A stretch of DNA of 45,798 nucleotides from Megasphaera sp. (GTDB taxonomy: Bacteria > Bacillota > Negativicutes > Veillonellales > Megasphaeraceae), in contig JALCDF010000007.1 of the NCBI GenBank assembly GCA_022641375.1, positions 1-45,798 of the forward strand, given 5' to 3'. The notes below the pieces were generated by a model, which saw only the letters and a program-made list of their open reading frames with translations, did not search any database and was not told where the DNA came from. Shown here in pieces: positions 186-11,052 of this stretch. Position 1 is the first letter of the stretch. The number at the start of each line of letters is the position of its first letter. A program made the translations under genes and the position numbers.

Positions 186-1715
186 TCAGTTGTTCTGTGA
201 TGTATCCGAATCTTTTGTATTTTTCGTATCCGGGGGATTTGTTTCGGCCAGCGGCAGGGTCATGCGGATCGTCAGGCCGCCACCGGGGGTTTCCAGGGCC
301 AGGATGGTGCCGCCCATGCCGGTCAGGATTTGTCTGGCGATGGCCAGTCCCAGGCCGTTGCCTTTGATATCCGAGCGGGCGGCATCGGTGCGGTAGAAGC
401 TGTCGAATAGTTTCGACAGGCTTTCCGGCGGGGCGCCCATGCCGTGGTCGATGCAGTCGATGCGGACCTGCCTGCCGGCCGGGGTGACGGTGAATTCGAC
501 GCGGCCCGTATCGCCTTGCTTATATTTCAGGCTGTTGCTGATGAGGTTTTCCAGGACGCGGCGGAACTGGAGGCTGTCGATGGCGACGATGGCCGGCGTA
601 TCCGGTCCCGTGAGGGTGACATCCAGTCCCTGTTCATGGAGGGCCGGCTGGATTTCCTGTACGACGTCGTAAATATACCGGTAAATCGGCAGCGGCTTCA
701 GGGAAAAGGTCATGCGGCCCAGGTCCAGTTTGGAGAACAGGAACAGTTTGTCGACCAGTTGTTCCATGGCGCAGGCTGTCGTATAGATGCAGTCCACATA
801 GTGGCGCTGTTTTTCCGGCGTGCTGGCGATGCCGTCGCGGATGCCGCTGGCATAGCCTTTGAGCAGGGTCAGCGGGGTGGACAGGTCGTGGGAGATGCCG
901 GCAATCAGTTCTTTGCGGTTCTGTTCGTATTTTTCCTGTTTTTCCCGGGATGATTTCAATTCGCGGCGCATGGTGTCAAAATCATGGCAGGTCTTGCCCA
1001 GTTCATCGTGACTGGATACGTCGAGCGTGTATTCGAGATTGCCCTTCTTGATTTCCGCCGAGGCTTTTTGCAAGGCCGTCAGGGGTTCCAGCACGTGGCG
1101 CGACAGGAGGCGGGACAGATAGATGCCCAGCCAGATGATGAGGAGGATGGCCAGGACGAGAATGGAGATGGCCAGGAATTCCAGGAAGGATTTCAGATTA
1201 TCGCCGGCGTCGTCATCATGATGGCCGATGAACGCGACGGAGCCGGCCGCATAGAGGGTGAGGTCGCGATGGCGGGACTGATTGACGAAATAGAAGTCGG
1301 GGCCTTCCCACAGGACAGCCGATGGCTGGGGGCCGACTTTTCTCCGGACGATATCCCGTATATGGGCGGCGTCACTGCCCGGTGTAGCATATAGGACACC
1401 GTCGTTTTGGACCATGACGGTGCGGATGCCCTGCCGTTCCAGCAGGTGGCATTCTTTTTCCAGTTTTTTCATATCCAGCGGATGTGGCGTATCCATCTTG
1501 TCCCGCAGGGCGCTGACCGAATAGGAAACGGACATGGAAGCGCCCCGTTCCGGCCAGAGGAGAGCCAGCTCGCTCTGCCGTACCGTGTCGGTAAAGCGGA
1601 GGCCGGCGAAGATAGCCGTGCCGAGGAGGGTCAATAAGATGACGGGAATGCATACCATCAGGAAATTGGTACAGAGTATGCGTGTCCGCAAGGAAATATT
1701 TCGCAGGTGCAGCAA
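186..1715 (-). CDS. Membrane sensor histidine kinase (HAMP-HisKA-HATPase)
   Basis: This 509-residue sensor kinase would autophosphorylate on His and pass phosphate to the regulator encoded just downstream. A first membrane segment spans about residues 17-40, an extracytoplasmic sensor region 41-175, a second membrane segment about 178-200, then HAMP. The HisKA box reads ELIAGISHDLSTPL, with the phosphoacceptor His in SHDLSTP. The ATPase domain shows NLISNSLKY (N box) and GNGLGLAIARQI (G2 box). The start is a TTG at 1715-1713: it is preceded by AAAGGGGG at a good distance, and no ATG fits as well. The C-terminal tail is Asp/Asn/Thr rich. The kinase precedes the regulator in the operon. The sensed signal cannot be read from the sequence; the divergent PepSY membrane protein is a likely target or accessory factor. 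Confidence 0.95.
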   Translation of the reverse strand: MLHLRNISLRTRILCTNFLMVCIPVILLTLLGTAIFAGLRFTDTVRQSELALLWPERGASMSVSYSVSALRDKMDTPHPLDMKKLEKECHLLERQGIRTVMVQNDGVLYATPGSDAAHIRDIVRRKVGPQPSAVLWEGPDFYFVNQSRHRDLTLYAAGSVAFIGHHDDDAGDNLKSFLEFLAISILVLAILLIIWLGIYLSRLLSRHVLEPLTALQKASAEIKKGNLEYTLDVSSHDELGKTCHDFDTMRRELKSSREKQEKYEQNRKELIAGISHDLSTPLTLLKGYASGIRDGIASTPEKQRHYVDCIYTTACAMEQLVDKLFLFSKLDLGRMTFSLKPLPIYRYIYDVVQEIQPALHEQGLDVTLTGPDTPAIVAIDSLQFRRVLENLISNSLKYKQGDTGRVEFTVTPAGRQVRIDCIDHGMGAPPESLSKLFDSFYRTDAARSDIKGNGLGLAIARQILTGMGGTILALETPGGGLTIRMTLPLAETNPPDTKNTKDSDTSQNN

Positions 1716-1791
1716 TCGATTACCCCCTTTATAGTATTACTTTATATAGTATACCAAATAATCAGCGGCGGCATATCCATTTTTTTTAAAA

Positions 1792-1834
1792 TTTAGTTGT
1801 CGTTTAGCTGGAATTTAGATATTCCCCGTATACT
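1792..1834 (+). promoter_or_regulatory. Promoter of the PepSY gene with three 11-bp-spaced TTTAG boxes
   Basis: TTTAG occurs at 1792, 1803 and 1814, exactly 11 bp apart, which puts the boxes on one face of the helix. A -10 hexamer TATACT follows at 1829-1834. The position for -35 (1806-1811, TAGCTG) is poor and lies inside the boxes. Direct repeats at 11-bp steps in place of a -35 are the usual arrangement for OmpR/PhoB-type activators. I infer that the adjacent response regulator binds here; the spacing is seen, the binding is not. Confidence 0.6.
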
Positions 1835-1895
1835 GACAGTGTACTACAAAAAAAGAAACGACTACAGATCATGAATGGACGGGGAGGTCTTGAAT

Positions 1896-2608: not shown

Positions 2609-2647
2609 AAAAAACCTCTTCAGGAAGGTGTCTGAAGAGGTTTTTTG
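2609..2647. terminator. Bidirectional intrinsic terminator
   Basis: The arms AAAACCTCTTCAG and CTGAAGAGGTTTT enclose a short loop and are followed by T runs on both strands. The hairpin lies between the convergent PepSY gene and TetR gene and can serve both. Confidence 0.9.
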
Positions 2648-2653
2648 CTGTCG

Positions 2654-3316
2654 TTAGCGTTTCTTGTCGGGATTGCGCAGGGTACCCAGGATGGCCAGGG
2701 TATTCTTTTTCAACAATTCCAGGAATTCGTCCTGCGGGAACCGGACCGGCAGATATTGACGGATGGGATTGTCCTGCGTGATGAAAATCAGGGAAAAGGG
2801 GGCGATAAGGGTGATGAGGCAGCTGTACAGGCGGGGATCCGTCGTGTCGTATCCCAGATAATCGCTGAGGATCTGTGTGAGGATGCGGAATTTCGGCAGG
2901 GCCTTGCTGGAAATGACCTGGCCGATACAGGGGGACGGATCGAGGATTTCCCGGATCCAGGCCCGCACATGCCAGTCATCCCGCCGGCACGTGTCTTCCC
3001 AAAAGAAGGCCAGGAGCCGTTCTACTTTCTGCCGCGGCGAAGCGTCGCTGTGATAGAGCCGGGTCATGATGTCGATGTTGACGAGGTAAATCTGGACTTC
3101 TTCCAGGACGGCGATATGCAGGCCGTTCAGCCCGCCGAAATGATAGTTGACAGCGGATTGGTTGACATGGGCCAGCTGACAGATTTCCTTGCTCGTCGTG
3201 TTGGCGTAGCCGTTCTGGGCGAACAGCCGGCCGGCACATTCGATGATGCGGGCCCGCGTTTCCCTGCCGTCTTCACGGCCGGAAACGGGTGACGTTTTTT
3301 TGATGGTGGTATGCAT
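2654..3316 (-). CDS. TetR/AcrR-family repressor of the CecR type
   Basis: This 220-residue regulator has an N-terminal TetR helix-turn-helix at about residues 22-70 (RIIECAGRLFAQNGYANTTSKEICQLAHVNQSAVNYHF) and a larger helical ligand-binding domain. It is the last gene of the efflux operon and starts 17 bp after the ybhR-like gene, with AAGAGG before the ATG. In E. coli the TetR-family protein CecR (YbiH) stands next to ybhG-ybhFSR, and the same association here supports a CecR-like role. The 18-bp palindrome in the operon promoter (8462-8479) is its likely binding site. Because the repressor gene is the last gene of the operon it controls, the circuit would be self-limiting. The ligand is unknown. 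Confidence 0.85.
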   Translation of the reverse strand: MHTTIKKTSPVSGREDGRETRARIIECAGRLFAQNGYANTTSKEICQLAHVNQSAVNYHFGGLNGLHIAVLEEVQIYLVNIDIMTRLYHSDASPRQKVERLLAFFWEDTCRRDDWHVRAWIREILDPSPCIGQVISSKALPKFRILTQILSDYLGYDTTDPRLYSCLITLIAPFSLIFITQDNPIRQYLPVRFPQDEFLELLKKNTLAILGTLRNPDKKR

Positions 3317-3333
3317 GATGAAGCGCCTCTTTC

Positions 3334-4452
3334 TTAGGATAATTTATGACGGAACAGCCATGATGCCAGGGGCAGCGTGATGGATGCGACGACGAGCATG
3401 GGAATGTAATTATATGCAATCAGGGCGAGGCCGGCCCCTTCCAGATAGATGCGCCGGATGGCTTCGATGGTAAAGCGCATGGGGTTGATATAGGTGACAT
3501 ACTGCAATACGTCGGGCATGTTGTGTATTGGCGTGGCCAGTCCGGACAACAGGATCATGGGCAGCATGAAGACGAAGCAGTAGACCATGACCTGTTGCAT
3601 GTTTTTGGCAACGGCGGAGATGGACAGGCCGATGCCGACACAGCTGATCAGGAAGATGAGAATCGTCAGGTACAGCGTCAGCAGGGAGCCGACGAGATGG
3701 ATGCCGAACCAGAAGGTGATGAGGCAGAGCATCAGGGTAGCCTGCAGCAGGCCGATGACGATGGGCGGTACGGCCTTGCCGATGAGGATTTCACGGGGCC
3801 GCAGCGGCGTGACCAGCAACTGGTCGAAGATGCCCTGTTCCCGTTCGCGGGCGACGGACAGTCCGGCCAGCATCAGGACCTGAGTCAGGGCTAATACGGG
3901 CAGCAGGGACGGCAGAAACATCCAGCGGGTGATCAAATTGGGATTGTAGCGGGCAATCGTCTGGATATGGATCAGCTGCCGTCCCTGATGGAGCTGATTG
4001 ATATTATAGGAGGAAACGATGGCACTGACATAGCTGGAAGCGATGCCGGACGTCATGGGATTCTTGCCATCGGTAATCACCTGTATCGGTGCCGTCTCGC
4101 CGGCCGTCAATTGATTGGCGAAGCGCGGCTGGATCTGGATGACCAGCATGGCATCGCCGGAATCGATGGCTTCGGAAATCGAGTCGGCATTGGCCAGGGT
4201 GCGGACGCGCTGGAAGATGCCGCTGCCGTCCAGGCGGGCCAGCAGTTCGTCGGAATATTTGCTGTGGCTCTGATCGAGGACTGCATAGGGGACGCTATCG
4301 AGATTATACGTAGCCGTATATCCGAACAGGAGGCCCTGGATCAGGACCGGGAAAATCAGGATGGCCCGGCTTTTGGGATCCTTGACGGTAGCCAGGAATT
4401 CCTTGCGGATGATACATATGATTTTGTATAGGAAGGCATGTAAGGTATCCAT
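3334..4452 (-). CDS. ybhR: ABC-2 type efflux permease, YbhR-like
   Basis: This 372-residue integral membrane protein has one N-terminal membrane segment (about residues 27-48), a large extracytoplasmic loop to about residue 170, and five or six membrane segments in the C-terminal half. The conserved cytoplasmic stretch SVAREREQGIFDQLLVTPLRPREILIGKAVP is the ABC2-membrane family hallmark. Its ATG shares one base with the stop codon of the preceding permease (TAATG), so the two are translationally coupled. It is expected to pair with the 4452-5579 permease and the double ATPase to form an exporter. The name rests on gene order and family; substrate specificity is not readable. Confidence 0.88.
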   Translation of the reverse strand: MDTLHAFLYKIICIIRKEFLATVKDPKSRAILIFPVLIQGLLFGYTATYNLDSVPYAVLDQSHSKYSDELLARLDGSGIFQRVRTLANADSISEAIDSGDAMLVIQIQPRFANQLTAGETAPIQVITDGKNPMTSGIASSYVSAIVSSYNINQLHQGRQLIHIQTIARYNPNLITRWMFLPSLLPVLALTQVLMLAGLSVAREREQGIFDQLLVTPLRPREILIGKAVPPIVIGLLQATLMLCLITFWFGIHLVGSLLTLYLTILIFLISCVGIGLSISAVAKNMQQVMVYCFVFMLPMILLSGLATPIHNMPDVLQYVTYINPMRFTIEAIRRIYLEGAGLALIAYNYIPMLVVASITLPLASWLFRHKLS

Positions 4453-5579
4453 TATTCCAGCTTCTTTCGGGTCACTTTCAGGGACAGCAGGATGAACAGC
4501 AGGGCGTAGGCGGCCAGAATCAGGCAGTTCTTGCCGATGAGGGTCCAGTTGTTACCGGCCAGGAACAGGGATTTCAGCAATTCCATATAATAGGTGGCCG
4601 GCAGGATATGGCCGACAGCACTGATGGCGACGGGGACGCTGCGCAGGTCGAACATGAAGCCGCTGAGCATGATCGTAGGCAGCATGCTGACGACAAGGGA
4701 CAGCTGGCAGGCCAGGAACTGATTCTTGACGACAGAGGAAATAGTCAGCCCAATACCGAGGGCGACCAGTACGTATTCCATGGAGGACAGGATGATGATG
4801 AACAGGGAGCCGTGGATGGGGACATCGTACAAGTAGCGGGCGGACAGCATGCAGAGGGTGAATCCCAGCATGGCGATGGAAAAGTACGGAATCATTTTGG
4901 CCAGGAGGATTTCCAATGGTTTGACCGGCGTGATGAACAGTGATTCCAGGGTGCCCCGTTCCCATTCGCGGGCCATGACCAGGGCGGTCAGGAAGACGCC
5001 GACAAGGGTCATGACGATGACAATCAGGCCGGGGATGAACAGCCACGTACTGGTATTGGCGTCGTTGAACCATTGGCGGTTCACGATGGAGACGGAGCCA
5101 AGGGACGCGGACGTCGTCGTGACGTAGTCTTTTTGATGCGCAGCCTGCCAGCTGTTCAGGCCGCTTTCGACATAGACCGCCGTCGTGCGGGCGGTTGCGG
5201 CATCGACGCCGTAAGAGATGATTTGCAGGCTGCCGTTTTGCTGCCGCAGACGGGATGTAAAATCAGGTGGTACACATAAGATAATATCGGCCTGGCGATA
5301 ATCCATCAGGTTTTCGGCCTCGGCCATAGAAGTTACGTACCGAGGCGAAAAATAGTCGGAACCTTGCAGGAAACCGAGCATATCCCGGACGGTCGGGGAG
5401 GAGTCCTCCATGACGACGGCGACGGGGACCTTTTTGATGTCAAAGGACATGGCCGAGCCGATGAGCAGGATCATCATCATAGGGATGACGATGCCGATGA
5501 GCAGGCTGCTCGGATCGCGCAGCATCTGACACCATTCTTTATGGATGAGTGCACGGAGACGGCGCAGGAAATCAGTCAT
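4452..5579 (-). CDS. ybhS: ABC-2 type efflux permease, YbhS-like
   Basis: This 375-residue permease is built like its partner: one N-terminal membrane segment (about 27-47), an extracytoplasmic domain of about 130 residues, then a block of membrane helices. The amphipathic motif ALVMAREWERGTLESLFITPVKPLEILLAKMIPYF marks the ABC2-membrane family. It overlaps the upstream ATPase gene by four bases (ATGA) and the downstream permease by one, so the three are tightly coupled. The two permeases probably form a heterodimer, as in E. coli YbhSR. Confidence 0.88.
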   Translation of the reverse strand: MTDFLRRLRALIHKEWCQMLRDPSSLLIGIVIPMMMILLIGSAMSFDIKKVPVAVVMEDSSPTVRDMLGFLQGSDYFSPRYVTSMAEAENLMDYRQADIILCVPPDFTSRLRQQNGSLQIISYGVDAATARTTAVYVESGLNSWQAAHQKDYVTTTSASLGSVSIVNRQWFNDANTSTWLFIPGLIVIVMTLVGVFLTALVMAREWERGTLESLFITPVKPLEILLAKMIPYFSIAMLGFTLCMLSARYLYDVPIHGSLFIIILSSMEYVLVALGIGLTISSVVKNQFLACQLSLVVSMLPTIMLSGFMFDLRSVPVAISAVGHILPATYYMELLKSLFLAGNNWTLIGKNCLILAAYALLFILLSLKVTRKKLE

Positions 5580-7336
5580 GATGCATTCGCCTCCTTGTCG
5601 GCCCGGGCCTGTTCGACGATGGCGATGAAGGCCTCATTCATGGTCCGGCTGCTGCCGCTGCGGCGGATTTCCGCCGGTGTGCCGATGGCCAGCATCCGTC
5701 CCTGATCCTGGATCATGATGCGGTCGCAATATTCGGCTTCTTCCATGAAATGGGTCGTAATGATGATGGTCGTGCCGGTGGCGGCCAGGGCGGTAATCTG
5801 CCGCCAGAAGGTACGGCGGGCCAGCGGGTCGATGCCGCTCGTCGGTTCGTCCAAAAATAAGATGCGCGGCCGGTGCATGAGGGCGGCGGCCATGGAAAGA
5901 CGCTGTTTGTAACCGCCCGGCAGGGTGCCGGCCGGCTGCAGTACCTGATCGGTCAGGCCGAACTGTTGCAGCAGCTCGGCCATGCGGGTACGGATTTGCT
6001 GCCGCGTCAGGCCGTAGGCACCGCCGAAGAATTCCAGGTTCTCTTTGACGGACAGCGTGCCGTAGAGAGAAAATTTTTGTGCGACGTAGCCGACGTTGGC
6101 CCGGGCCTGAGCCCTGGCCGTACGCAGATTGACGCCGGCTACGGACAGGAAGCCGCTCGTAGCGGGGAGCAAACCGCAGAGCATGCGGAATGTCGTGGAT
6201 TTACCGGCACCGTTCGGTCCCAGCAGGCCGAATATTTCACCGCGGCGGACTTGGAAAGACGTATTGTCCACGGCTGTGAAATTGCCGAATTTGCGGACCA
6301 GATCCCTGACTTCGATTTCAATCTTGTCGGAAATGGCCGTGCCGGCTCCATAGTCCAGTTCAAAACCATGGGTATCCCGCGGTTCATGGCTGACGGCCCG
6401 GAGAAGTTTCATGAAACTATCTTCCAGTACTGCTGGTATGGGACGGGGGTGCAGGGTATCGAAATAACGGTACGCGTTCAACCCGCTTAAAACGGTTGGT
6501 GAAGTCACACTGAAGCGTACTTCGCCGCTTGCCGGTACGGCATCGACGACGTGTTCCGCATCATCCAGCAGTGCTGCCTGCAGGATGCGGGCCGGTACGC
6601 CTGCCGGCGGCCGGAGCATGAACGTACAGCCATCCGAGGCGTGCAGCAGTTCTGCCGGAGAGCCCTTGTCTAACAGGTGACCCTGATGGAGGATGTAGAC
6701 CTGCTGGCAAAGGGCGGCTTCATCCATATATGCGGTGCTGACAAAGACGGAGATGTGTTCTTCCGCTGTCAGTTCCTGCAGGATGGCCCATAATTCGCGG
6801 CGCGAGAGAGGGTCGACGCCGACGGTCGGTTCATCCAGCAGCAGTAATTTCGGTGAGCGGACGAGGGTGCAGGCCAACCCCAGTTTCTGTTTCATGCCGC
6901 CGGACAGTTTGCCGGCCGGGCGGTTGGTGAAGGAGGACAGGCCCGTGATGCGGAGCAGCCGGTCGAAGCGGGCCTGCCGCATAGCGGCGGGGACACCGTG
7001 CAGATCCGCATAGAGGCGCAGGTTTTCCTGGACGCTCAGGTCTTCGTAGAGGCCGAATTTCTGCGGCATGTAGCTGAGCTGATCCTGGATGGCCTGGGGA
7101 TGGCGGGTGACATCCATGCCGAGGACGGACAGCGTACCCGCCGTCGGCGACATAAGGCCGCAGAGGAGACGCAGGAACGTCGTCTTGCCGGCGCCGTCCG
7201 GCCCAATCAGGGCGGTCAGTTGTCCCGGTTCGATTTCCATATTGATTTGGTGTAATGCCTCGACGGGACTCCCTGTGACGACATCGTGGAATGTCTTGCA
7301 GAGGTTGACGGCCCGGATGATTTTCTGTTCGGTCAT
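5576..7336 (-). CDS. ybhF: Double-domain ABC transporter ATPase, YbhF-like
   Basis: This 586-residue protein contains two complete ABC ATPase domains. Domain 1 (about residues 8-235) has Walker A GPDGAGKTT, signature LSGGMKQKLG and Walker B LLLLDEPTVGVDP. Domain 2 (about 335-575) has GPNGAGKST, a signature reading LPGGYKQRLS with Pro in place of the usual Ser, and ILFLDEPTSGIDP. The changed second signature suggests the two ATP sites are not equivalent; this is an inference. It energises the two permeases encoded immediately downstream, with which it overlaps by four bases. E. coli YbhF has the same tandem architecture. Confidence 0.92.
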   Translation of the reverse strand: MTEQKIIRAVNLCKTFHDVVTGSPVEALHQINMEIEPGQLTALIGPDGAGKTTFLRLLCGLMSPTAGTLSVLGMDVTRHPQAIQDQLSYMPQKFGLYEDLSVQENLRLYADLHGVPAAMRQARFDRLLRITGLSSFTNRPAGKLSGGMKQKLGLACTLVRSPKLLLLDEPTVGVDPLSRRELWAILQELTAEEHISVFVSTAYMDEAALCQQVYILHQGHLLDKGSPAELLHASDGCTFMLRPPAGVPARILQAALLDDAEHVVDAVPASGEVRFSVTSPTVLSGLNAYRYFDTLHPRPIPAVLEDSFMKLLRAVSHEPRDTHGFELDYGAGTAISDKIEIEVRDLVRKFGNFTAVDNTSFQVRRGEIFGLLGPNGAGKSTTFRMLCGLLPATSGFLSVAGVNLRTARAQARANVGYVAQKFSLYGTLSVKENLEFFGGAYGLTRQQIRTRMAELLQQFGLTDQVLQPAGTLPGGYKQRLSMAAALMHRPRILFLDEPTSGIDPLARRTFWRQITALAATGTTIIITTHFMEEAEYCDRIMIQDQGRMLAIGTPAEIRRSGSSRTMNEAFIAIVEQARADKEANAS

Positions 7337-7387
7337 GATGCATTCGCCCTTTCGTAACTAACCGTACGGTTGCCAGTGTCGCTTCTG

Positions 7388-8380
7388 TTAGAAACGAATC
7401 GTTGCCGGCATGCCCATGCGCAGTACGTTCTGTTCGTCCGTGACGTAGATGCGTACTTCATATACCAGGGAGCTGCGCAGTTCTTCGGTCTGGACTGTCT
7501 TCGGCGTGAATTCGGCGGTATCGGAGATATAGCCGACCTGTCCTGTCAGCGGCGTATCGGGCTGGCTGTCGATGTATACTTGTGCGGCCAGGCCTTCGTA
7601 GATGCGGCTCAGTTTGTCTTCCGGGATATAGGCGCGCACCCATTTGACGTTGTCGAGGCCCAGCAGGAAGACCGGTTTTTGCGAAGAGGCCATATCCCCC
7701 GGTTCCAGCAGGCGGGAGCGGATGACGCCGTCCTGCGGGGCAATCAGTGTCGCCTGGCTCAGGTTGTATTCCTGGGTGCGCAGGTTTTCCTGCAGTTGCT
7801 GCAGCTGTGCATCGGCTGCGTCGATATCTTCCTGACGATAGCCGATTTGAGCCATCTGATGGGCGGCTGTGTTGTTCTGCAAGGTCGCGGCGGTCATCTT
7901 GAAGGAGGCTTCGGCGTTGTCCAGCTCCTGGCGGCTGATGGCACCTTGTGCGTACAGCTGCTGCATGCGCTGGTAGGTCAGCTGATTGTTTTCATAATTA
8001 GCGGCAGCGGAATGGACGGACGCTTCGGCTTCGGTGATTTCTTCCGGTCGGGAGCCATTGTGCATCTTGGCCGTGACGGCACGCTGCTGGGCAATCTGCG
8101 CGTTGGTGGCGGCAATGGCAAGTTCCAGCGGTTCCGTGTTCAGCGTAGCCAGCACATCCCCTTTGTTGACGTGGTCTCCTTCTTCGACGTTCACGGTCTG
8201 GATGCGTTCATTGGCATTGAAGGCCAGCGAGACCTGCCGGATATCGACGTTGCCGTACAGGGTCAGGGCTGTCTCCCGCGGACGGGTATACTGATAGGCG
8301 GCAATGCCGGCGGCCAGCAGGAGAATCAGGAATAAAAGGAGTTGTTTTTTGTGAGCTTGCAGGAATTGTTTCATGTGCAT
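7388..8380 (-). CDS. ybhG: HlyD-family periplasmic adaptor, YbhG-like
   Basis: This membrane-fusion protein of about 330 residues connects the inner-membrane exporter to the outer envelope. It has an N-terminal membrane anchor (QLLLFLILLLAAGIAAYQY). A split biotinyl-lipoyl-like domain follows (LYGNVDIRQVSLAFNANERIQTVNVEEGDHVNKGDVLATL, completed near IAPQDGVIRSRLLEPGD). Between the halves lies a long coiled-coil hairpin rich in Ala, Gln and Glu. The open frame extends to 8455, but that codon lies inside the promoter -10 element, so translation must begin later. ATG at 8380 has a GAGAGAG purine run five bases upstream; ATG at 8374 is the alternative. It is the first gene of the exporter operon. 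Confidence 0.88.
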   Translation of the reverse strand: MHMKQFLQAHKKQLLLFLILLLAAGIAAYQYTRPRETALTLYGNVDIRQVSLAFNANERIQTVNVEEGDHVNKGDVLATLNTEPLELAIAATNAQIAQQRAVTAKMHNGSRPEEITEAEASVHSAAANYENNQLTYQRMQQLYAQGAISRQELDNAEASFKMTAATLQNNTAAHQMAQIGYRQEDIDAADAQLQQLQENLRTQEYNLSQATLIAPQDGVIRSRLLEPGDMASSQKPVFLLGLDNVKWVRAYIPEDKLSRIYEGLAAQVYIDSQPDTPLTGQVGYISDTAEFTPKTVQTEELRSSLVYEVRIYVTDEQNVLRMGMPATIRF

Positions 8381-8453
8381 CCATCTCTCTCTCGGGTATA
8401 TGGTGACTAAGGATGTATAAGGACAGTCGATACTCGCGTCTTTATGTATATTC

Positions 8454-8482
8454 ATTATATCAAATTAGAATTCTAATTTCAA
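8454..8482 (-). promoter_or_regulatory. Promoter and 18-bp palindromic operator of the ybhGFSR-tetR operon
   Basis: On the minus strand, -35 TTGAAA (8482-8477) and -10 TATAAT (8459-8454) are separated by exactly 17 bp. The perfect palindrome AAATTAGAATTCTAATTT covers 8462-8479, overlapping most of the -35 and filling nearly the whole spacer. A protein bound there would block RNA polymerase. The operon ends with a TetR-family gene, so this is the natural candidate operator. Confidence 0.85.
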
Positions 8483-8649: not shown

Positions 8650-8979
8650 ATGTATACTGTAACGAAGAGACTTGAAATATCGGCCAGCCATCATCTGGAA
8701 TTGGATTATGAAAGCAAATGCCAGAACCTGCACGGCCACAACTGGATCATATATATTACCTGCCAGAGCGAAACCCTGGACCGCAACGGCATGGTCATCG
8801 ATTTCAAATACATTTCGACGCAGGTCAAGGACAAACTGGACCACCAGAATTTGAACGACGTATTGGATTTCAATCCGACGGCGGAAAATATTGCCAAATG
8901 GATCTACGATACCATTCCCAAATGTGTCAGGGTACAGGTGCAGGAAAGCGAAGGGAATGTAGCTGTTTATGAAAAATAA
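8650..8979 (+). CDS. queD: 6-carboxy-5,6,7,8-tetrahydropterin synthase
   Basis: This enzyme of 7-deazaguanine (queuosine precursor) synthesis converts 7,8-dihydroneopterin triphosphate to 6-carboxytetrahydropterin. The 109-residue protein has the normal family length. The zinc ligands are visible as His15 (SASHHLE) and His28/His30 (NLHGHNW). Cys24 is the expected catalytic cysteine (SKCQN), Asp64-His65 lies in KLDHQNLND, and Glu99 is in VQES near the end. It overlaps queE by 11 bases, so the two are translationally coupled. queC and queF are not in the window. A good AAAGGAG site supports the start. Confidence 0.93.
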   Translation: MYTVTKRLEISASHHLELDYESKCQNLHGHNWIIYITCQSETLDRNGMVIDFKYISTQVKDKLDHQNLNDVLDFNPTAENIAKWIYDTIPKCVRVQVQESEGNVAVYEK

Positions 8980-9601
8980 ACTGAAGGTCAATGAAATCTT
9001 TGACAGTATCGACGGCGAAGGAAAACGGACGGGCGAACTGGCGACATTCATCCGGCTGACGGGGTGCAATTTGCGGTGTTCCTATTGCGATACGACCTAT
9101 GCTTTTGACGAAGGAAACGAACGGGATGTGGCAGATATTGCCGGCAGCGTCACGTATCCCAATGTCACGATTACCGGCGGCGAACCGCTTTGTCAGGATA
9201 TACACGGGTTGATCGAGTCCCTGAATGGACATGATATCAATATCGAAACCAACGGCAGTGTGGCTATCGGGCCGTATATGAAGTATGAAAACGTGTTTTT
9301 TACCATCGATTATAAATGCGGCAGCAGCGGCATGTCACAGGCGATGGAAATGAAGAATTTCACGATGTTGCGGCCACGGGATGTGTTAAAATTTGTCGTC
9401 GGCAGCAGGGAGGATTTGCAGGAGGCCCGCAAGGTGACGGAAACGTACCGGCCGGCGTGCGCTGTCTATGTCAGTCCTGTGTGGGGGGAAATAGAACCTG
9501 CCGACATCGTCGATTTCATGAAGGAATATACGCTGACGCAGTGGACCGTACAGGTACAGCTCCATAAGATTATCTGGGATCCCGCGGCCAGAGGAGTCTA
9601 A
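8969..9601 (+). CDS. queE: 7-carboxy-7-deazaguanine synthase, radical SAM
   Basis: This radical SAM enzyme would convert the QueD product to 7-carboxy-7-deazaguanine. The 210-residue protein carries the cluster motif CNLRCSYC (Cys33, Cys37, Cys40) and the SAM-binding TGGEPL at about residues 69-74. The N-terminal VNEIFDSIDGEGKRTGELATFIRLTGC is typical of QueE. It starts inside the 3' end of queD. The stop codon at 9599-9601 coincides with the left edge of the first large repeat, so the next sequence appears to have been joined exactly at the end of this gene. Confidence 0.93.
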   Translation: MKNKLKVNEIFDSIDGEGKRTGELATFIRLTGCNLRCSYCDTTYAFDEGNERDVADIAGSVTYPNVTITGGEPLCQDIHGLIESLNGHDINIETNGSVAIGPYMKYENVFFTIDYKCGSSGMSQAMEMKNFTMLRPRDVLKFVVGSREDLQEARKVTETYRPACAVYVSPVWGEIEPADIVDFMKEYTLTQWTVQVQLHKIIWDPAARGV

Positions 9602-10010
9602 AGGGGGGGCGCTGCCTATCCTTCTGTCCGTTCAGATGGCCCCATCCTATTGTTGCCGCTTTTATCCTCAAAGAAAAGGCGCCCATATCCGTTAGGATAA
9701 GGGCGTGGGTTCGCATCACATGCAAGAATGGGTTTTCTTTTCGGATTCAGCTGGCAACAGTACGGATGGTTCCAAATTCACGGACCGAAGAACAGGCAGC
9801 TTGGGGATGTCAGGTATCTTCGTTCTGCGAAGATAGAGGTGGGCATCATCCTTATTTTGTCCACTCAATGGCTGTAGACAAAGCAGTATTGCGAAGCAAT
9901 ACATGCGTTGTCCGCCAAATGGATGGACAAAACAAAGACGCTGTCCACCAGTAGCAATTGCGGAGGAGAAAGTCAGTTCTTAGTTGTTGGAAGTGAGGTT
10001 CTTGGTTCTT
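9600..10010. repeat. Large structured direct repeat, copy 1
   Basis: About 411 bp recur at 10635-11052 in the same orientation with only about a dozen differences, apart from a 7-bp insertion near the end of copy 2. The unit is rich in stems. An 11-bp stem at 9680-9705 (one mismatch) would act as a terminator on the minus strand, with TTTTCTTT following. TATCTTCG/CGAAGATA lies at 9815-9835. GTATTGC-GAA-GCAATAC lies at 9886-9902, enclosed by TTTTGTCCA (9855-9863) and TGGACAAAA (9924-9932). The open frames in it show no ribosome binding site or family resemblance. Copy 1 lies directly downstream of the minus-strand toxin gene. No transposase gene or terminal target duplication is visible. Confidence 0.9.
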
Positions 10011-10025
10011 GAAAACCTGGAATCG

Positions 10026-10286
10026 TTAATCATGATAATGTTCTTTACACTGGATGATTTCCAGACGGTTTCCGTTAATCCGATACACCAAACGGTCTTT
10101 TTGATTGATGCGTTTACTATGCCAGTCGCCATCCATATAGCGCAGCGGTTCATCTTTGCCTAATCCATCATACCCATTGCGTTGGATGTCTTTTACCAGT
10201 TTGTTTATTTTAGTCAAAGTTTTTTTGTCGTTGCTCTGATACCTGATGTAGTCCTGCCATGCTTCTTCATCCCAACAAATAATCAT
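10026..10286 (-). CDS. yoeB: YoeB/Txe-family toxin (ribosome-dependent mRNA endonuclease)
   Basis: This 86-residue toxin aligns without gaps at the known active-site positions of E. coli YoeB: Glu46 (KDEPLRY), Arg65 (QKDRLVY) and His83 (CKEHYHD). Toxins of this family bind the ribosomal A site and cleave mRNA. The gene overlaps the upstream antitoxin by four bases (ATGA), the usual arrangement. The whole pair is bracketed by the two ~410-bp direct repeats. All catalytic residues are intact, so the toxin is probably active. Confidence 0.93.
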   Translation of the reverse strand: MIICWDEEAWQDYIRYQSNDKKTLTKINKLVKDIQRNGYDGLGKDEPLRYMDGDWHSKRINQKDRLVYRINGNRLEIIQCKEHYHD

Positions 10287-10549
10287 TTGTCTTCCTCAAT
10301 CAGGGAATGTGTAATATAGTTTCCGGAATCCATACGTTTTGCTGCCGCTTTTAAATGGTGCATGTTTTCATCGCTGTAGAAATGATCTCCTGCAGTTACA
10401 CGGAATGGGATAGCCCGATCTGCTACCAGACGTTTTGTAAAAATCGTAATGGCAGCTGACATCGTCAGTCCCATGTCGTTACATATTTCTTCAGCTTGTC
10501 GTTTCAGGTCAGCATCTATACGGATTGTCATCGTTGTATTTGTTGCCAT
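10283..10549 (-). CDS. RelB/DinJ-family antitoxin
   Basis: This 88-residue antitoxin has a ribbon-helix-helix DNA-binding N-terminus (TMTIRIDADLKRQAEEICNDMGLTMSAAITIFTKRLV) and a C-terminal part that should wrap the toxin. The ATG at 10549 was chosen because AAAGGACG lies upstream; the frame could also open at 10567. A TATAAT element lies about 15-20 bp upstream on the minus strand, in a region the antitoxin may also bind. DinJ-type antitoxins are best known with YafQ-like toxins and YoeB with YefM, so the pair is a mixed combination, though such mixes occur in Firmicutes. Confidence 0.9.
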   Translation of the reverse strand: MATNTTMTIRIDADLKRQAEEICNDMGLTMSAAITIFTKRLVADRAIPFRVTAGDHFYSDENMHHLKAAAKRMDSGNYITHSLIEEDK

Positions 10550-10634
10550 GATATCACGTCCTTTCAATTATATCATAATACGTTGTCATAACATTGTAAA
10601 TATATGATACAAACAATGACATATATATTGCGAA

Positions 10635-11052
10635 TAAGGGGGGCGCTGCCTATCCTTCTGTCCGTTCAGATGGCCCCATCCTATTGTTGCCGCTTTCGTC
10701 CTCAAAGAAAAGACGCCCATATCCGTTAGGATAAGGGCGTGGGTTCGCATCACATGGCAAGAATGGGTTTTCTTTTCGGATTCAGCTGGCAACAGGACGG
10801 ATGGTTCCAAATTCACGGACCGAAGAACAGGCCGCTTGGGGATGTCAGGTATCTTCGTTCTGCGAAGATAGAGGTGGGCATCATCCTTATTTTGTCCACT
10901 CAATGGCTGTAGACAAAGCAGTATTGCGATGCAATACATGCGTTGTCCGCCAAATGGATGGACAAAACAAGGACGCTGTCCACCAGTAGCAATTGCGGAG
11001 GAGAAAGTCAGTTCTTAGTTGTTAGTTGTTGGAAGTGCGGTTCTTGGTTCTT
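10635..11052. repeat. Large structured direct repeat, copy 2
   Basis: This second copy of the 9600-10010 unit has the same orientation and starts 1035 bp after the first. It keeps every stem seen in copy 1; in the GTATTGC/GCAATAC hairpin only the three-base loop differs (GAT instead of GAA). It ends in the same TTCTTAGTTGTT...GTTCTTGGTTCTT tail, with one extra AGTTGTT repeat. It lies downstream of the minus-strand abi gene and upstream of the antitoxin promoter. Confidence 0.9.

Follow-up and report, generated by a model that had tools for sequence, protein, structure and literature searches.

The question raised by this locus is what three evenly spaced TTTAG boxes do in front of a gene for a membrane-anchored PepSY protein, at the place where a promoter would carry its -35 element. 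The window, by which is meant the whole stretch of DNA analysed (45,798 nucleotides), is a complete 45.8-kb contig. It belongs to a genome of Megasphaera sp., referred to as G000, of which 1.69 Mb are assembled (79% complete). The butyryl-CoA dehydrogenase of this genome scores 715 bits over 380 residues against PDB 1buc, the enzyme of Megasphaera elsdenii, in keeping with a Megasphaera-like genus. In a preliminary description the boxes had been read as the mark of an activator-dependent promoter, and the neighbouring kinase and regulator, together with the PepSY protein, as a self-contained sensing unit.

Anatomy of the PepSY promoter

As first described, three exact TTTAG boxes lie on the plus strand at steps of exactly 11 bp, beginning at 1792, 1803 and 1814, and a TATACT -10 element follows 10 bp past the third box (Table 1). 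The claim of a good -10 without a good -35 also holds, since a search of 1600-2000 of the window for sigma-70 -35/-10 pairs gave none. The best -35-like hexamer at 16-18 bp matches at 2 of 6 positions in the window and at 2-4 of 6 among the 12 PepSY promoters compared, none of which has a good -35.

Table 1. Features at the PepSY promoter and its flanking genes (window coordinates)
Feature	Position	Strand	Basis
Response regulator, N-terminal 48 residues, cut by contig start	3-146	-	sequence; orthologues
Sensor histidine kinase (HAMP, HisKA, HATPase_c)	186-1715	-	domain matches; start codon as in ORF list
Half-site 0, most upstream; TTTTT here, degenerate	1781-1785	+	information content and random shifts
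Half-site 1, TTTAG	1792-1796	+	window sequence, shuffles, promoter alignment, information content
Half-site 2, TTTAG, well conserved	1803-1807	+	promoter alignment, information content
Half-site 3, TTTAG, best conserved, adjoins -35 region	1814-1818	+	TTTA in 13/13
-10 element TATACT without -35	1829-1834	+	sigma-70 search, promoter comparison
GGGGAGG, probable ribosome-binding site	1881-1887	+	read from sequence
Membrane-anchored PepSY-domain protein, 230 aa	1896-2588	+	Pfam PF03413, 27.3 bits; AlphaFold2 model; 12-member alignment
Inverted repeat flanked by A/T runs, probable terminator 3' of PepSY gene	2609-2646		sequence; opposite-strand self-match

The triple box is beyond chance, as judged from shuffled windows, from its singularity in the genome and from shuffled upstream regions. 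With up to 2 mismatches allowed, TTTAG-N6-TTTAG-N6-TTTAG has 2 matches in the window, both inside the array; the mean in shuffled windows is 0.04, and none of 100 shuffles reaches 2. The genome search proposed earlier returned one exact triple in the 1.69 Mb assembly, which is the window's own array. Upstream of the PepSY gene the best three-box score is 15 of 15, a value matched by none of 500 shuffles and reached solely with an 11-bp step; steps of 8-10 and 12-15 bp give 9-10.

Conservation of the array

Relatives of the PepSY protein occur in 13 of the 15 genomes of the genus, G000 included, and in neither of two genomes of the sister genus. Conservation of the boxes among relatives had been named as a test of the first reading. 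All 13 PepSY-bearing genomes keep the array at the PepSY promoter, across four gene orders, in the form of a promoter of the type TTTA-N6-TTTA-N10-TATACT. In the gapless alignment of the 13 promoters the -10 hardly varies, and neither do half-sites 2 and 3; the 10-bp spacing from half-site 3 to the -10 is the same in all 13, and the -10 reads TATACT or TATAGT. TTTAG predominates among the half-sites; in one PepSY promoter (G013) half-site 2 is TTAAG. Half-site 1 is an exact TTTAG solely in G000 and G003, TTTAT in G008 and G009, and weaker in the remaining genomes. G011 is represented in this alignment and was left out of the upstream shuffles, the information content and the -35 comparison. 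In G003 the PepSY gene (L042:530-718) has a broken frame near the contig end, while its promoter array is intact.

The alignment brought out a further half-site above those first described. Seven of the 12 promoters compared have TTATG at half-site 0, and the mean information of this half-site in 10 non-redundant promoters is 1.22 bits compared with 0.28 in other columns, a value attained by none of 5000 random shifts. The next 11-bp step above it has no signal in the same 10 promoters (-0.01 bits). The true array is one of four 11-bp-phased half-sites, of which the window has three perfect and one degenerate. Four half-sites leave room for two dimers.

Another reading is that the boxes are T-tracts in phase with the helix, which would act on RNA polymerase directly as an UP-element or as curved DNA and need no activator of their own. 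They are indeed T-rich and helix-phased, and the letters of the first box vary between genomes. This is nevertheless very improbable in view of the conserved non-T letters (TTATG, TTTAG), the fixed 10-bp gap to the -10, the conserved absence of a -35 and the recurrence of such sites at functionally related genes, which is described below.

Gene order and neighbouring genes

The trio of kinase, regulator and membrane PepSY protein can be recognized in the window from the kinase domains, the regulator N-terminus and the PepSY domain. In 12 of the 13 genomes the PepSY gene is a neighbour of the two-component genes, and it lies at most 4 genes from the kinase/regulator pair, as in a DbfQRS-like module. 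The preliminary description had the two-component system divergent from the PepSY gene. That arrangement is present in the window but is not a general feature, being found in 6 of 13 genomes (G000, G001, G003, G008, G009 and G012). In 5 (G002, G006, G007, G010 and G011) PepSY, kinase and regulator follow one another on one strand, in G014 the order is kinase-regulator-PepSY, and in G013 the PepSY gene is 3.3 kb from the two-component genes, with three genes between. The array travels with the PepSY gene, whatever the gene order.

These arrangements bear on the idea that the boxes serve autoregulation of the divergent kinase-regulator operon, with the link to PepSY incidental. Both units share one intergenic region in the window, as that idea would have it. 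It is scarcely credible, however, because the site stays before PepSY in the 7 of 13 genomes with the kinase operon elsewhere or on the same strand, the -10 faces PepSY, and minus-strand sites occur in just 2 of 13 regions. With kinase-facing sites in 2 of 13 regions, kinase autoregulation was also rejected as a general feature.

Other genes of the window were noted in passing. At 2654-8455 a CecR-like TetR regulator, two ABC-2 membrane proteins, a double ATPase and an HlyD-type protein are encoded in a row, with domains assigned from profile matches for four of its proteins; we take this row to resemble the ybhGFSR exporter of Escherichia coli. Two genes at 8650-9601 presumably correspond to QueD and QueE of the queuosine pathway. 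A small toxin-antitoxin-like pair, by eye of the YoeB/RelE and RelB/DinJ type, occupies 10056-10560 and is flanked by a near-identical intergenic repeat (ggggggcgctgcctatccttctgtccg...) at about 9601-9670 and 10636-10700.

The two-component system and its paralogue

The kinase is predicted to have an extracytoplasmic sensor of about 130 residues, modelled as a small alpha/beta domain. The best Foldseek match of this model is the periplasmic domain of CpxA, a weak one (E 0.008). A kinase-based search for related loci gave only 2 distant loci; two kinase rows that contain a stop (L045, L055) were left out of the kinase alignments.

An OmpR-type output domain in the regulator was the other test set beforehand. 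The window copy is truncated at 48 residues, and the answer comes from relatives: three orthologues have a receiver and a Trans_reg_C domain, the latter at 96-98 bits, as does one paralogue regulator, and in ten orthologues the alignment extends through a shared winged-helix end. The array also has the direct repeats, spaced by roughly one turn of the helix, that mark tandem-repeat operators of the OmpR/PhoB family. Together, the conserved array and the OmpR-type output domain of the orthologues support the proposal that this is a putative activator-dependent promoter.

Among solved structures the orthologue from G001 scores best with RegX3 (187.6 bits), far above BasR/PmrA (85.7 bits, BasR 4s04), and on this comparison the regulator was rejected as a PmrA/BasR orthologue. 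Against NCBIfam it scores highest with models of YycF and VanR, all of them below their cut-offs, and no PmrA model is among the best 25 NCBIfam matches.

A paralogous second system (G000:C8) is present in 8 genomes, with more distant copies in G004 and G014. The regulators of the two systems, compared for 10 of the 12 relatives' first systems (G003, G009 and the G001 paralogue being left out), have a mean identity of 66%, and the recognition-helix stretches, GDTATVMVHINRIREKIE in the first and GETATVSVHVNRIREKIE in the paralogue, are nearly the same. With so few differences in the recognition helix, the boxes could be bound by either regulator. A rival reading is that they are bound mainly by the second system, or that the two regulators both bind them in overlapping regulons. 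Promoters beside the second system have related boxes ending in A, and the paralogous system adjoins some of the genes with weaker sites. In G004, TTTAG boxes precede an ArnT-related gene although this genome has neither a close copy of the first system nor a PepSY match. On the other side, PepSY genes adjoin the first system, not the second, and G003, G008, G009 and G011, in which the second system was not found at E 1e-40, keep the PepSY site. We regard binding mainly by the second system, or by both, as unlikely; the regulator encoded beside PepSY would be the one that binds the boxes.

The PepSY protein

The protein has an N-terminal membrane helix. Its PepSY fold is interrupted by a charged insertion, predicted to be disordered, at residues 107-188, the first part of which has many Lys, Asp and His residues. 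In the AlphaFold2 model a helix at 76-87 and strands at 95-103, 194-202, 205-212 and 218-225 are of good confidence. Foldseek matches of this model are weak, the best being a lipoprotein of Clostridioides difficile (E 0.035) and the fourth the C-terminal domain of YpeB. The protein alignment comprises 12 members, the broken frame of G003 having been left out.

A candidate regulon

Scanning with 2 mismatches was uninformative for a regulon, as a reversed control pattern is about as frequent as the true pattern, and in the whole genome of G000 at least as frequent. A position model and gene-based controls were therefore used instead. The model, R1, was made from the 13 PepSY sites alone and by construction ranks these first, at 21-39 bits; ArnT-related, epimerase and kinase promoters rank next. 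Of the 44 non-PepSY matches, 24 were examined. Among these were promoters of ArnT-related glycosyltransferases, epimerases (G000, G001, G012 and G013), UppP (G000 and G012), a membrane-fusion-type efflux gene (G004), the paralogue's kinase (G001 and G013) and the first system's own kinase (G001); several look like chance. A match in G000 (G000:C16) stands about 370 bp before what, from the look of the sequence, we take to be an RND membrane-fusion/pump gene pair.

All 49 PMT_2 genes matched in the 15 genomes were then set against 259 control genes from 20 arbitrary 20-kb stretches. An R1 site of at least 14 bits within 300 bp of the start was found for 10 of the PMT_2 genes and none of the controls, whose maximum was 8.1 bits (Fisher p 4.5e-9, a value that ignores the relatedness of the genomes). 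In the ArnT-like group all 7 genes have two boxes 29-34 bp upstream, four with a strong score and three with a changed -10. Thirteen further genes form a system-linked group; 6 of them have a site of their own, 4 lie behind a site-bearing epimerase and 3 have none that is clear. The remaining 29 have no site. For one ArnT-like protein the match to the ArnT structure 5ezm has an E-value of 7e-59; this protein scores 246 bits with the NCBIfam ArnT equivalog model, below the cut-off of 567, and these proteins are therefore called ArnT-related only. In G008 and G009 a PMT_2 gene is near the first system (L031:1821-3299 and L033:1003-2475). Just 3' of site-linked PMT_2 genes there are genes (L139:5623-5961 and L127:6068-6343) for small proteins that look exported and have many His, Asp and Arg residues, with a charge pattern similar to that of the PepSY insertion.

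UppP was rejected as a core target, having its own site in 2 of 17 upstream regions; a further copy (G013, at 2529879) is in an operon headed by a site-bearing epimerase. G005 has no PepSY match, no kinase relative at E 1e-40 and no convincing site. When R1 was run on 61 genomes across the order, matches outside the genus were weak, among them sites before a DedA-like gene (G017, L210) and a PAP2-like phosphatase gene (G055, L218), both plausible as undecaprenyl-phosphate genes.

To judge from these sites, genes for ArnT-related glycosyltransferases, for sugar epimerases and for RND-type efflux are probably under the control of the weaker form of the operator, and their products may decorate the outer surface of the bacterium. 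Because weaker sites sit at other envelope genes, the kinase, regulator and PepSY protein do not make up the self-contained unit first supposed.

A proposed mechanism

What the sequences show directly is the array with its conservation and its link to PepSY, the output domain of the orthologues and the enrichment at ArnT-related genes. These findings make it probable that the boxes are an operator of the OmpR/PhoB family and form an activator-dependent PepSY promoter in a surface-modification regulon shared with the paralogue, with feedback from PepSY. Most likely the system responds to envelope stress in the manner of PmrAB or BqsRS, here in an LPS-bearing Firmicute, and its phosphorylated regulator switches this promoter on.

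The phosphorylated regulator would bind the two proximal half-sites at 1803-1818 as a head-to-tail dimer that replaces the -35, and would bring RNA polymerase to the TATACT -10. Binding would be made firmer by another dimer, seated on the distal pair of half-sites (1781-1796). Such a promoter would then drive the membrane-anchored PepSY protein, and weaker sites in a surface-modification regulon would be shared with the paralogous system, with its near-identical recognition helix. The PepSY protein is most likely placed outside the membrane, beside the kinase sensor domain, where it would contact the kinase and tune it, by analogy with DbfQ and DbfS. We infer the identity of the regulator, activation, this feedback, the signal and the sugar acceptor; candidate signals are envelope damage, cationic peptides or a metal.

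More tentatively, Megasphaera-like Firmicutes that possess an outer membrane could have their own, independently derived counterpart of PmrAB, in which two paralogous systems share a TTTAG/TTTAA operator and one of the two has a membrane-anchored PepSY partner with a stress-sensing loop. The operator would switch on transferases of lipid-linked sugars, sugar epimerases and efflux genes, and the disordered, charged PepSY loop would sense a metal ion, a cationic peptide or free LPS and set the kinase. This is possible, but we hold it to be less likely than not.

Comparison with known systems

The anatomy of the promoter matches the published operators of BqsR, CiaR and PmrA, and modules of PepSY protein, kinase and regulator are already known from DbfQRS. 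In Pseudomonas aeruginosa, according to the accessible part of the report, BqsR recognizes TTAAG-N6-TTAAG in arrays of up to five phased pentamers; in a dissected promoter, where the last pentamer overlaps the -35, activity depends critically on the two proximal pentamers, and the distal ones add to it (PMC4682146). In the accessible texts, the PepSY genes PA2658/PA2659 adjoin BqsRS (PMC4682146; PMC12714742). The present operator is like that of BqsR in its phased pentamers, N6 spacers, several half-sites, a last half-site over the -35 and a presumptive activator. It differs in reading TTTAG rather than TTAAG, in a regulator closest to YycF/VanR/RegX3-type models, in variable gene order and in its host, a Negativicutes-like Firmicute. 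Assignment to the BqsR-type TTAAG-N6-TTAAG operator was rejected, as TTTAG predominates here.

The CiaR box of streptococci, NTTAAG-N5-TTTAAG, has the same 10 bp between the last repeat and the -10; the targets named in the accessible part of that report are small RNAs and other promoters, and it mentions no PepSY protein (PMC3091779). PmrA of Acinetobacter baumannii binds TTTAAG-N5-TTTAAG, as excerpted (PMC10927774), and the 11-bp direct repeats and candidate ArnT-type targets are as in the PmrA box and PmrAB regulon, again from partial texts (PMC10927774; PMC2904496). Unlike in PmrAB, the regulator orthologue is nearer to RegX3, the box is TTTAG and the glycosyltransferases are below the ArnT equivalog cut-off.

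The literature search listed nothing on a two-component regulon of this surface-modification kind in Megasphaera, and control of the lipopolysaccharide surface in diderm Firmicutes seems little described. If the proposal is true, a short motif defines a regulon, open to testing, through which common bacteria of the gut and rumen would modify their outer membrane and tolerate antimicrobial peptides.

The closest parallel for the PepSY protein is DbfQ of Vibrio cholerae, which in the accessible text binds the sensor domain of DbfS and pushes DbfS toward its phosphatase state, in a pathway activated by LPS defects and polymyxin B; modules of PepSY, kinase and regulator are described there across phyla, some on opposite strands (PMC12714742). 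As in DbfQRS, a small PepSY protein is encoded with a kinase and a regulator. DbfQ is a secreted protein of 135 aa, whereas the proteins described here, of 193-257 aa, carry a membrane helix at the N-terminus and, within the PepSY domain, a long insertion that is charged and disordered. If the proposed feedback is true, they would offer a naturally occurring set of PepSY partners in which to study the steering of histidine kinases.
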